Assembly (NCBI RefSeq): GCF_004342005.1
Contig: NZ_SMBX01000001.1
Span: forward strand, 186,001-250,000
DNA from: Paracandidimonas soli
GTDB lineage: Bacteria > Pseudomonadota > Gammaproteobacteria > Burkholderiales > Burkholderiaceae_B
Length of the DNA: 64,000 bases
Direction: 5' to 3'
Below are positions 34,988-38,628 of the stretch, piece after piece. The first letter of the stretch is position 1, and the number at the start of each line of letters is the position of its first letter. The position numbers and the translations under genes are program-made. The notes beneath the pieces were generated by a model. That model was not told the origin of the DNA. It was given only the letters and a program-made list of their open reading frames with translations, and made no database searches.

Positions 34988-35494
34988 ATGGCATCCGTAA
35001 ACAAAGTCATCCTCGTTGGTAATCTGGGCCGTGATCCCGAAGTGCGCTACAGCCCGGACGGCGCGGCCATCTGCAACGTTTCCATCGCCACTACCAGCGC
35101 CTGGAAGGACCGCAATTCCGGCGAGCGCCGAGAAGAAACCGAATGGCACCGCGTGGTGTTCTACAACCGCCTGGCCGAAATCGCCGGCGAATACCTGCGC
35201 AAGGGCCGCTCGGTCTACGTCGAGGGCCGGCTGAAGACCCGCAAGTGGCAGGACAAGGACACCGGCCAGGACCGCTACGCCACCGAAATCGTGGCGGACC
35301 AGATGCAGATGCTGGGCGGCCGCGAGGGCGGCGGCGAAGGTGGCAGCGGCAGCAGCTACGGCGGCACGGAATACGGCGGCGCGCCGGCTCCGCAATCCCG
35401 TCCGCAGCAGCAGCCCGCGCAGCCGCGCCCGGCGGCGCCGCAGGCGCCCGCGGCGGCGAATCTGGCTGATATGGACGACGATATTCCGTTCTAA
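34988..35494 (+). CDS. ssb: Single-stranded DNA-binding protein
   Basis: The 168-residue protein has an N-terminal OB fold (1-110; [42 protein letters not shown]), a glycine/glutamine/proline-rich disordered linker and the acidic C-terminal tip MDDDIPF that recruits replication and repair partners. AAAGGGG precedes the ATG. It ends at a bidirectional terminator shared with the encapsulin operon. Confidence 0.98.
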
Positions 35495-35520
35495 GGTGCG
35501 CTTCCGTCGGTTTTACCGAA

Positions 35521-35560
35521 AAAAGGGCCAAGTGATTGTGTCTCACTTGGCCCTTTTTAT
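35521..35560. terminator. Bidirectional terminator between ssb and encapsulin genes
   Basis: A perfect 15-bp stem (35521-35535 with 35543-35557) with a 7-base loop. The + strand ends in CCCTTTTTAT and the - strand in CCCTTTTTTCGG, so it serves both ssb and the convergent encapsulin gene. Confidence 0.92.
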
Positions 35561-35587
35561 ACGCGAACCGGCAAGCCGGTGCCTGTA

Positions 35588-36397
35588 TTATTTCCCCGCT
35601 GACGGCATCAGCGCCACGGCGGCTTCGGGAGACAGCAGGCGGAAGGTGAAGCTTTCCTGCAGGTACAGGTTCACGACGCTGTCTGTGTGCGACTGGTAGC
35701 CGATCGATATGTCCTGCCCCAGATGCAGCGAGAAGTCTCCGCCGCGGGTGCTGAGCAGCACGCCGCCTTCGATGCCGGGCGCCCAGACGATGTCGCCGTC
35801 CAGCAGAGGACGGATATGCTTTAACAGCGGATAGCCGTCGTCGGAAGCGCCGCTGACGGCGGCAAAGGCCTTCTCTCCGAGCACCAGGATATAAGGACCG
35901 TTGACGCCAGCCAGGCGAAGCTGGCTCAGCGCTTGCGCCACGACGGCGGGATAGCGGGTGATATCGGACGGCAGCGTCGTCGCCGGATTGTCAGAGCCTG
36001 GGCGCATGCCCTGGATGCCGGCTGCGGCGTAGCCGTCGAACACGGCCCGGTCTTCCGCGTAGGCGATCTTGCGCGCGGCATCTTTCAGCGGTTGCAGGTC
36101 AGGGTCATCGGAGCCGCGCTCGACATCGTCGAGCGTCCGGCGCGACAGCTCGAATGGCACGCGCAATTCCACCAATGCCTGAACCTGATGCTGCCCGGCG
36201 CGGATGCCGTCATCCGGAGCCTGGATGTCGTTGAGATGGCCGGTACCGATGGCGGCAAGAGCCGCCCCTTGAGGGTCGGCGACATCCACGACTCGCCGGG
36301 CCGCGAGGTAGCGCTTGAGCGTGCGGGAGGCCTCTTCCTCGATCTGCTCCCAGGCGGCATCTGATATCGGAGCAAGTTTACGATGCAGGTTGTTCAT
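35588..36397 (-). CDS. Encapsulin shell protein (linocin M18 family)
   Basis: Self-assembling shell protein with the HK97 phage capsid fold; 60 copies usually form a roughly 20-25 nm (T=1) compartment. The 269-residue protein has the normal length and the family landmarks MNNLHRKLAPISDAAW, the ARRVVDV strand, LRVPFELSRRTLDDVERG, EDRAVFDGYAAAGI and the C-terminal DISIGYQSHTDSVVNLYLQESFTFR. It follows the DyP peroxidase gene, whose end it overlaps by 20 bases; its ribosome binding site AAAGGAG lies within the codons of the cargo-loading peptide. Confidence 0.95.
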   Translation of the reverse strand: MNNLHRKLAPISDAAWEQIEEEASRTLKRYLAARRVVDVADPQGAALAAIGTGHLNDIQAPDDGIRAGQHQVQALVELRVPFELSRRTLDDVERGSDDPDLQPLKDAARKIAYAEDRAVFDGYAAAGIQGMRPGSDNPATTLPSDITRYPAVVAQALSQLRLAGVNGPYILVLGEKAFAAVSGASDDGYPLLKHIRPLLDGDIVWAPGIEGGVLLSTRGGDFSLHLGQDISIGYQSHTDSVVNLYLQESFTFRLLSPEAAVALMPSAGK

Positions 36398-37418
36398 GCG
36401 AGGGTTCTCCTTTGAGTGAGCCGATGCCCAGTGAACTATCGGTCACACTGTTGCCCGGTGAGGTTTCAATGAGGGATTGCGGCGTGCTGATTTCCGGTAC
36501 ATTGTCCAGGAAATCGACCGAGGGGACGAAGAACAGCGAGCCCGTGACGGCGCGGCTGAAGTCCAGCAATCGGTCGTAGTTGCCTGGCGGGCGGCCGATG
36601 AACATGTTCTCCAGCATCTGCTCGATACGGCTCGGGGACTTGGCATAGCCGATGAAGTAAGTGCCGAATTCGCCCTTGCCAATGTCGCCGAAGGGCATGT
36701 TGCTGCGTACGATGTCCAGCTCTTCGCCGTCTTCCTCGATCACGGTCAGCGCGTTATGCGCCCAGGTCGGCTTTACGTCGTCGTCCAGTTCGATGTTGGT
36801 CTGCTTGCTGCGGCCGATGATTTTTTCCTGCATTTCGACGGGCAGCCTGTTCCAGCCGGCCATGTCGTGCAGGTACTTCTGCACGATCACGTAGCTGCCG
36901 CCGGCGAAATCGTCGTCTTCGTCACCGATGACGGTGGCGTCGACCGCTTCCCCGCCAGTGGGGTTTTCGGTGCCGTCTACGAAGCCCAGCAGATCACGGT
37001 TGTCGAAATACTGGAATCCATGCACTTCATCCACAACGGCAACCGCCTCGCCCAGACGCGACGTGATCTGTGCGGCCAGCTCGAAGCACAGATCCATGCG
37101 CGTGGCGCGGATGTGCAGCAGGATGTCGCCTGGCGTGGATACGGCGTGGTGTACGCCTTGAATTTCCTTGAAGGGGTGCAGTTCCTTGGGCTTGGGCGAT
37201 CCGAACAGGCGATCCCAGGCCTCGGAGCCGATTCCCAGGATACAGGACAGGCGTCCATCGAGATCACGAAAGCCGACAGAACGCAGCAGTCCCGACAGAT
37301 CCGCGCAGAAGTCGCGCACGGCATCCAGGGGAGCGGCTCCGGGATTGATGGTCAGAACCAGATACATCGCCGCTTGCGTCAGCGATGAATCGACAGGTTG
37401 GTGCGTTGCAGATGGCAA
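36378..37418 (-). CDS. Encapsulated DyP-type haem peroxidase
   Basis: Dye-decolorising peroxidase of 346 residues and cargo of the adjacent encapsulin. The distal Asp148 lies in GFVDGTENP, the probable proximal haem ligand His221 in TWAHNAL, and the distal Arg238 in IVRSNMPFG. The last 20 residues hold a cargo-loading peptide: LGIGSLKG at 330-337, preceded by a flexible serine/threonine-rich tail. Such peptides dock on the inner surface of the shell. The role is probably peroxide-dependent oxidation in a confined compartment under oxidative stress; the physiological substrate is unknown. Confidence 0.96.
   Translation of the reverse strand: MPSATHQPVDSSLTQAAMYLVLTINPGAAPLDAVRDFCADLSGLLRSVGFRDLDGRLSCILGIGSEAWDRLFGSPKPKELHPFKEIQGVHHAVSTPGDILLHIRATRMDLCFELAAQITSRLGEAVAVVDEVHGFQYFDNRDLLGFVDGTENPTGGEAVDATVIGDEDDDFAGGSYVIVQKYLHDMAGWNRLPVEMQEKIIGRSKQTNIELDDDVKPTWAHNALTVIEEDGEELDIVRSNMPFGDIGKGEFGTYFIGYAKSPSRIEQMLENMFIGRPPGNYDRLLDFSRAVTGSLFFVPSVDFLDNVPEISTPQSLIETSPGNSVTDSSLGIGSLKGEPSHEQPAS
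36407..36413 (-). promoter_or_regulatory. Ribosome binding site of the encapsulin gene inside the cargo-peptide codons
   Basis: On the - strand AAAGGAG stands nine bases before the encapsulin ATG. In the DyP frame the same bases are the AAA GGA G.. codons for Lys-Gly-Glu of the SLKGE part of the loading peptide, so one stretch serves as peptide code and Shine-Dalgarno sequence. Confidence 0.85.
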
Positions 37419-37492
37419 AACTTTCTCCTTCCAGGCTCAGGGAGTCCAAGCAGACAGTTTACCCCCGTGATGATGATGTCGCGAGGAGGGCA

Positions 37493-38416
37493 TTATGTCG
37501 CGTCTTGCGAACTGCCATCCGGTTCGTTCCGGCTGTCGATCGCGTTTACGTATGCGGAGCTGTCGAATCCATACTCGTGCATCAACCGCTTGAATCGCTG
37601 CAGATCGTGCACGGCGACGGGCCCCAGTTTCTGCGCCAGGCGCACCATCAGGATCTCGATGAGAACGAGATGGGCGAGATAGGTTTCGGTCCCTACCGAG
37701 CGCAGAGGATCTTGCGGAGGCGATACGGCCAGCACCAAGTCCGAGATTTCGGCAAGCGGCGTTCCGGGCTGGGTCAGGGCAATGACCGTCGCTCCATGGG
37801 CGCGCGCATAGCGTGCGGCATCGAGTGTGTATGGCATGCGCCCGAGATGCGAGATAATGAATGCGATTCCCTTGGGGCCGAGCGTGCTGGCCGATACCAA
37901 CTGCTGGTTGGCATCGAAGATCGAGTTCGAAGGTACGCGCAATCGAAATAGCCGGCTTTGCAATTCGTTGGCAATGAAGGTTGAGGACGCCCCGACCGAA
38001 TAGCAGTCAATGCGCTCTGCGGCCGCCATGCGGTCTGTGACCTTGTCGATTATCTCCGCGTCCATGTTCTGGACCAGTTCCCGTAGCGATGAAATTGCGC
38101 TGTAAATGACTTTGCTGGCGACGTCCGAGGTGCTGTCCGTGGCGAGTACGCTGCGGTGCAGGTGCGACCCGCTGGCTGCATAGCTTTGCGCCAGGGCGAC
38201 CATGAAATCGCGTACCGACATGTAGCCGAAGCTGCGGCAGGTCCGGACGATCGTTGGCATCGAGACGCCGGCTTTTTTGGCCAGTTCCTCGACAGTGGCG
38301 ACGGCTGCTGCCTGGGGATCGGACAAAATGACGCGAGCCACGAGACCCTGGGAAGGGGATAGGCTGGGCAAGCGTTCCTGGAGTTCCTGCAGGAGATTGT
38401 TTGTGCTGATTGGCAT
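37493..38416 (-). CDS. MurR/RpiR-family transcriptional regulator
   Basis: A 307-residue regulator with an N-terminal RpiR helix-turn-helix domain (about 1-80; VATVEELAKKAGVSMPTIVRTCRSFGY) and a C-terminal SIS sugar-phosphate-type isomerase domain (about 120-270; DCYSVGASSTFIANEL, FIISHLGRMPYTLDAARYARAHGATVIALT). The ATG at 38416 is preferred over upstream in-frame codons. It lies beside a Bug gene and a D-amino acid enzyme pair; two GTAAT-N3-ATTAC sites, like the TGTAAT-N3-ATTACA motif known for the RpiR protein HexR, lie in the neighbouring divergent promoter. Confidence 0.9.
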   Translation of the reverse strand: MPISTNNLLQELQERLPSLSPSQGLVARVILSDPQAAAVATVEELAKKAGVSMPTIVRTCRSFGYMSVRDFMVALAQSYAASGSHLHRSVLATDSTSDVASKVIYSAISSLRELVQNMDAEIIDKVTDRMAAAERIDCYSVGASSTFIANELQSRLFRLRVPSNSIFDANQQLVSASTLGPKGIAFIISHLGRMPYTLDAARYARAHGATVIALTQPGTPLAEISDLVLAVSPPQDPLRSVGTETYLAHLVLIEILMVRLAQKLGPVAVHDLQRFKRLMHEYGFDSSAYVNAIDSRNEPDGSSQDAT

Positions 38417-38628
38417 GATGAAAACGGGCGCTGGCCATGCCAGCCCCCGCAAGGTTTCGCCGATGCAGCCGGATGTTCAGCCTCCGCGCATGCGGCATGG
38501 CGTAAATATCCAACTATAGCAGGCACGTTGCCGTTGAGCCGCTCGGATCGAAAGCCGCCTCATCTGCCTTCAAGCCTGTTGTGGCCGCAACCGATCGGCG
38601 CATCATCGCTGTGTCGCAAACAAGCTGA

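Follow-up and report, generated by a model that had tools for sequence, protein, structure and literature searches.

The cargo–shell junction

The 64,000-nucleotide (nt) stretch of the Paracandidimonas soli genome analyzed here (contig NZ_SMBX01000001.1, positions 186,001 to 250,000; "the window", whose first letter is position 1 below) carries, on its minus strand, an encapsulin shell gene and the gene for its cargo. The upstream open reading frame (36378..37418; TTG start, TAA stop, 346 residues) matches PF04261 and PF20628, which identify the cargo as a DyP-type peroxidase; its best match among solved structures is 8u4z, an encapsulin-associated DyP (E 3.7e-147). The downstream open reading frame (35588..36397; ATG start, 269 residues) matches PF04454 with E 8.3e-96 and 320 bits against a cut-off of 24.3, which places the shell protein in the Linocin_M18 family, and a DyP gene directly upstream of such a shell gene makes the pair a family 1 encapsulin operon. 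The nearest encapsulins among the best 80 of 581 relatives come from Castellaniella and are 88 and 84% identical. DyP ends in ...SSLGIGSLKGEPSHEQPAS. Its residues SSLGIGSLK (36411..36437, minus strand) differ from the GSLxIGSLK targeting motif solely at the first position (motif and lysine requirement from PMC10960027) and form a docking peptide, whose final codon, AAA (36411-36413), specifies the docking Lys. Beyond it, the codons of the tail GEPSHEQPAS and of the stop (36378..36410) double as ribosome binding site, spacer, and first seven codons of encapsulin.

The junction reads CTC AAA GGA GAA CCC TCG C|ATG. AAAGGAG (36407..36413, minus strand), the Shine-Dalgarno (SD) sequence of the encapsulin gene, covers the Lys and Gly codons and the first base of the Glu codon, and a gap of 9 nt (36398-36406) separates it from the ATG. 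The two genes overlap by 20 nt (36378..36397, minus strand), a longer overlap than the canonical 1- or 4-nt stop/start arrangement (TGATG or ATGA). The first-pass annotation of this DNA had described both features, AAAGGAG nine bases ahead of the ATG in Lys-Gly-Glu codons (36413-36407) and a 20-nt overlap, and both are as it described them. At one place in the genome, a 16S-type 3' end carries the canonical anti-SD CACCTCCTT; AAGGAG within the DyP frame is complementary to this tail and pairs with it at -8.7 kcal/mol, as expected of an intragenic SD. Predicted opening costs are 4.1 kcal/mol for the stretch spanning SD and start, compared with 11.7 kcal/mol for same-phase DyP positions. An RNA element or structured switch was considered and rejected: Rfam gave no match at gathering scores across 35000-38500, and the 91-nt junction folds no better than its shuffles (z -0.19).

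We consider it highly probable that this is an overlapping cargo–shell pair in which the SD lies in the codons for the docking Lys and the two residues that follow, and in which the codons of the cargo tail are set largely by the initiation region of the shell.

Docking signal, SD, and translation of the shell

Relatives were collected from whole genomes (loci from 50 of 52 matching genomes), one scan of genome contigs (the best 80 relatives, as above), and plasmids (20 stretches out of 63 records); the sample is non-random and biased toward close relatives of the query. A pattern-based junction caller took 197 loci to 177 junctions with a loading peptide, 165 of them unique (12 exact repeats), and 93 representatives below 90% identity. 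Ten loci were dropped because the pattern did not recognize the encapsulin start, and ten lacked a called loading peptide: five with separated genes, three with altered motifs (L107, L174, and L202), and two in which none was found (L085 and L086). All six actinobacterial loci come from plasmids, and a plasmid search with a Nocardia encapsulin likewise gave 63 records. Matches in 36 of 5426 Escherichia coli genomes lie outside the compared set. Forty pattern matches in viral contigs included no relative, and a Pfam search for other encapsulin families matched 8 of 398 genomes of the phylum, too few for other cargo classes. A second cargo bearing a loading peptide was sought in 46 genomes, and none was established among the 30 places examined of 69 listed: 19 are DyP ends of known operons (including 2 separated pairs), 9 lie within longer proteins, and 2 are short open stretches.

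Gly follows the docking Lys in 106 of the 165 unique junctions and in 45 of the 93 representatives. Its codon is GGA in 105 and 44 of these, respectively (the remaining representative has GGG), where codon usage of the same genes predicts 4.4 of 45. In 75 of 92 representatives, the anti-SD pairs more strongly with the native sequence than with synonymous resamples on average (p 9e-8; three junctions with more than 60 nt from Lys to start were excluded), and 85 of 93 contain an SD match of at least 4 nt. The SD-to-start region is also predicted to open more readily than same-phase positions in DyP (6.6 versus 11.5 kcal/mol), the cost being lower in 85 of 87. Judged from these sequences, the DNA-level constraint falls mainly on residues following the docking motif.

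Where docking ends can be gauged from the Klebsiella DyP, in which the modelled targeting peptide is SGSLNIGSLK, with Lys as its final residue; the Lys346Ala substitution abolishes loading and Lys347Ala has little effect (PMC10960027). If the DyP of the window docks likewise, the SD core GGAG occupies residues that are apparently dispensable for loading, and only the Lys codon also serves the docking signal. Among the 93 representatives, 60 have their best SD match in contact with the Lys codon, 29 have it entirely within the tail, 3 have it beyond the DyP stop, and 1 has it out of range. Because the best match falls outside the docking motif in 32, the motif and the SD are separable. The earlier proposal of a single short stretch that both specifies the docking signal and governs shell translation thus holds insofar as AAAGGAG lies in both elements, but is too strong, since they have only the Lys codon in common.

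Divergent junctions serve as natural controls. L153 and L192 have long tails, with 55-56 nt between Lys and ATG; around the docking Lys they read AAA GAA and AAG GAA, and other codons, close to the ATG, contain the best SD match. The peptide of a clostridial plasmid (L110) terminates at Lys, with AAGGAGG after the stop. DyP likewise terminates at SLK in three Bacteroidota loci (L065, L078, and L081), where the shell starts 94 nt further on; Bacteroidota are reported to use SD sites little (PMC6728339). The 94-nt spacer is identical in Chryseobacterium (L065) and two Epilithonimonas records (L078 and L081), and its final two dozen bases ahead of the shell recur in a Sphingobacterium record (L086), a likeness that suggests transfer between these genera.

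DyP and encapsulin would be translated from one mRNA, on which the cargo tail codons would be largely dictated by the SD, the spacer, the ATG, and, in most representatives, the shell Asn2-Asn3 codons that provide the cargo stop. The 30S subunit would most likely bind the accessible SD both independently and from ribosomes completing DyP; direct initiation besides reinitiation is favored because the region is predicted to be open and the SD is strong. A strong SD and an ATG, compared with the TTG of DyP, should also favor shell over cargo. An encapsulin shell comprises 60 subunits, so that shell is required in excess of cargo. We infer from the sequence that the SD is used in vivo, that shell is made in excess, and that coupling is partial rather than obligate.

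In a stricter alternative, the strong form of the first-pass proposal, the docking signal and the SD are one evolved unit and the shell is translated solely by termination-reinitiation from the cargo gene. Overlaps of 4-20 nt in 81 of the 93 representatives would suit such a mechanism, as would published work: strict coupling was found in 13 of 14 overlapping pairs that were assayed, and of five E. coli pairs, one could not do without the SD, three lost 60-90% of reinitiation when it was removed, and one was unaffected (PMC6728339). Papers on encapsulins have inferred coupling as well (PMC8229669, PMC7925596). We nevertheless regard obligate coupling as unlikely, because in 29 representatives the SD is confined to the tail and in 3 it follows the stop, because folding predictions show an accessible rather than masked initiation region (fold z -0.19), which favors independent initiation, and because pairs with separated genes exist. 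An excess of shell over cargo would, moreover, be unattainable by strict 1:1 coupling.

Origin of the codon bias

By distance from Lys, Gly is encoded by GGA in 8 of 73 cases at codon -8, 7 of 57 at -5, 27 of 93 at -3, 44 of 45 at +1, and 16 of 23 at +4. When the post-Lys Gly is paired with the Gly of LxIG (codon -3), discordant junctions divide 27 to 1 (p 2e-7).

Separated genes offer a natural control. In five Burkholderiaceae loci of one genus code (L128, L133, L134, L135, and L178; 17 of 18 matching genomes of the genus were covered), 443-1027 nt lie between the DyP stop and the encapsulin start. The peptide LxIGSLK-G[VI]PS is retained, yet the post-Lys Gly is GGC in 5/5, versus GGA in 12/12 adjacent pairs from that genus code (Fisher 1.6e-4, uncorrected for relatedness). 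The intervening DNA is G+C-rich and has a common stretch just ahead of the shell start. The expectation in the first-pass annotation that evolution of the peptide would be constrained at the DNA level is therefore borne out, by GGA in nearly every post-Lys Gly against 11-29% of Gly codons in the docking motif and by its replacement with GGC upon separation.

Junctions that lack the Gly point to a second register. GAGG appears about one codon further on in 27 of 43 Gly-free representatives, mostly at a distance of 5-7 nt from the shell start, and in 1 of 45 with Gly (p 1.8e-10; five representatives with more than 25 nt were excluded). Loss of the SD with retention of the peptide, which the first-pass annotation had named as evidence against its proposal, is thus seen only by half: AAAGGAG is lost and the peptide kept, but most of these junctions have the downstream GAGG. 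On a quick tree of encapsulins, in which 19 of 90 inner branches are starred, Gly and non-Gly interchange only 7 times. Phylogenetically independent pairs were considered as a test of register switching and set aside as too few, with 3 on well-supported branches.

GGA after Lys could be kept for another cause, such as a termination context that depends on the codon, 3' ends that are A-rich and unstructured, or a protein role of Gly combined with shared ancestry. Such a cause would accommodate the persistence of Gly in all five separated loci, the enrichment of GGA at the LxIG Gly (29% versus ~10% in gene bodies), and the 16 of 23 GGA codons at +4, near to the start for an SD. It fits poorly with the appearance of GGC exactly where the shell start is removed, with the absence of GGA enrichment at -5 and -8 in the same genomes, and with an SD-like match in another register in most non-Gly lineages, and we judge it improbable.

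Several observations nonetheless weigh against the reading favored here. At single loci, resampling gives p<=0.05 in just 13% of representatives, and the window is above that value (-8.7 versus a mean of -5.3 kcal/mol for synonymous resamples with the peptide fixed, p = 0.096). Eight of the 93 representatives (L013, L018, L019, L021, L065, L106, L198, and L199) reach a 3-nt SD match at best, and in three of them (L019, L021, and L106) the pairing energy falls short of -5 kcal/mol. The LxIG Gly is itself GGA-rich (27/93), compared with 11-12% at neighboring motif Gly codons as well as with gene bodies. The separated loci belong to one genus and may record one event, and the Gly they keep may reflect some protein role or inertia. 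In that genus, GGA also encodes the LxIG Gly in 8 of the 12 adjacent loci but in 0 of the 5 with separated genes; because this codon, outside the reach of the SD, shifts likewise, part of the GGA difference may be a clade-wide codon change. AAA at the docking Lys was considered as a further SD effect, being enriched with Gly tails (35/41 versus 20/38, p 0.003), but is not credited to the SD because Lys is AAA in 5/5 separated loci. Finally, the mutual exclusion of Gly and GAGG is not significant once relatedness is taken into account, because Gly changes only 7 times.

Pure chance, by which Lys-Gly-Glu merely happens to be written AAAGGAG here, would agree with the single-locus p and with the count of the bare 7-mer in the window (3 matches in 64 kb versus 3.56 expected, reached by 70 of 100 shuffles), but exact AAAGGAG at the same place in 27 of 93 representatives, together with the 44 of 45 GGA codons, contradicts it and leaves it exceedingly improbable. 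An argument from rarity of the 7-mer was rejected, as its frequency matches expectation; with this and the single-locus p, the case beyond chance rests on the relatives.

Junction registers, known systems, and implications

Overlaps of 8 nt occur in 64 of the 93 representatives and of 4 nt in 16. In the 8-nt form, encapsulin codons 2-3 (ATG AAT AAY) supply the TAA stop of DyP, and codon 2 is AAT in all 63 such junctions with an MNN shell start, as the frame demands; the 64th, L062, starts MDN. Codon 2 is AAC in 12 of 13 MNN junctions with a 4-nt overlap. Both Castellaniella relatives (L014 and L015) have AAT and an 8-nt overlap. In the window, codon 2 is AAC, and DyP continues through QPAS to a TAA within encapsulin codons 6-7. 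Since AAC stands where the two nearest relatives have AAT, the DyP stop has been lost and reading extended; a change silent in the shell lengthened the cargo protein, whose tail is longer by four residues than in those relatives. A different geometry is seen on the E. coli plasmid pF16EC0456-1 (L202), where the DyP stop lies 1 nt ahead of the shell start rather than within the shell gene. In the DyP motif of this locus, LNISSLK, Ser takes the place of the second Gly. Substituting Ala for the equivalent Gly prevented loading in the Klebsiella system (PMC10960027), and by analogy loading may be impaired in L202.

Similar junctions occur with encapsulins outside the DyP set. L006 ends in LTVGAMKGA, with ATG AAA GGA GCA TGA C ATG, and L012 in FTIGSLKKGRR, with AAG AAG GGA. 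The genome that carries L008 has a second encapsulin (L013, G198:C1:1973356-1977168), 48% identical to that of the window; the gene upstream of it terminates in LGIGSLRRVGQ, with CGG CGG codons and an SD match of just 3 nt. Arg-Ser follows the docking position in two of the six actinobacterial loci (L105 and L107), written AGG AGC in both; L107 has Asn at the docking position. The codons are AAA GGA in two Rhodococcus loci and AAG GAA AGG in L104, and L106 has no clear SD. Across all unique junctions, an Arg directly after the docking residue is AGG in 3 of 6 cases, and in L107 as well.

The published family 1 consensus SDGSLGIGSLKRS includes Arg-Ser after the docking Lys (PMC8346489). The residues that follow Lys (Gly in many Proteobacteria, Acidobacteriota, and Rhodococcus, and Arg-Ser in SDGSLGIGSLKRS) may be a protein shadow of the shell SD and not docking determinants, a tentative proposal that we rate almost evenly with its opposite. 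They would be kept since a single conserved junction, made up of the cargo tail and stop together with the SD and start of the shell, slides among a few registers, with the shell SD written in cargo codons as AAA GGA G or AAR AGG AGC. If the actinobacterial pattern holds widely, the Arg-Ser of SDGSLGIGSLKRS would be an SD in codon form; two loci underlie this prediction. On the proposal as a whole, what is read as a "targeting peptide consensus" would in part be a signal at the RNA level.

Other features surround the gene pair. The DyP gene has its own SD, AAGGAG (37425..37430, minus strand), 6 nt 5' of its TTG start, and the same layout is found in L014. An inverted repeat with flanking A and T runs (35519..35558), located between the convergent encapsulin and ssb genes, is probably a shared two-way terminator. 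Directly upstream of DyP, a minus-strand gene (37493-38452) encodes what we take, by the look of its sequence, to be an RpiR-type regulator, which may or may not control the operon.

An SD inside an upstream gene is common among gene overlaps. A survey of 464 kb of this genome, made with a simple purpose-made gene finder that chose starts regardless of SD, returned 278 same-strand neighbors, of which 55, including this pair, overlap by 1-25 nt. Anti-SD pairing reaches -6 kcal/mol or better in 24 of the 55 and -8.7 kcal/mol or better in 12 (11 of the 54 others); 10% and 1.5% of control positions reach these values. SD sites within upstream genes have been described from 530 genomes (PMC2784483), and the principle of intragenic SDs in overlapping genes is also in print (PMC6728339). 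Relative to those pairs, for which overlaps of 4 or 1 nt are central, the junction of the window overlaps by 20 nt, its constrained C-terminus borders a known docking peptide, and two SD registers and a separated-gene control are visible. It resembles other family 1 DyP encapsulin operons in having DyP directly upstream of a Linocin_M18 shell and a C-terminal GSLxIGSLK-type peptide (PMC8346489, PMC10960027). Tight packing of cargo–shell operons, with likely translational coupling, has been published (PMC8229669, PMC7925596). In Mycobacterium tuberculosis, too, the DyP stop overlaps the encapsulin start, an overlap whose consequence at the RNA level is not discussed in the accessible portion of that paper (PMC11676171). 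Among the matches listed for the open-access PMC literature, their accessible portions held no description of an SD within targeting-peptide codons.

Encapsulin tags are copied as peptides into engineered cargo. If the residues after Lys serve initiation of the shell rather than docking, a minimal tag can end at Lys, and a native two-gene operon recoded, for instance, from GGA to GGC could silently make less shell and load cargo differently. Adjacent and separated pairs with the same peptide would also provide a natural system for gauging the constraint that an intragenic SD places on the upstream protein.
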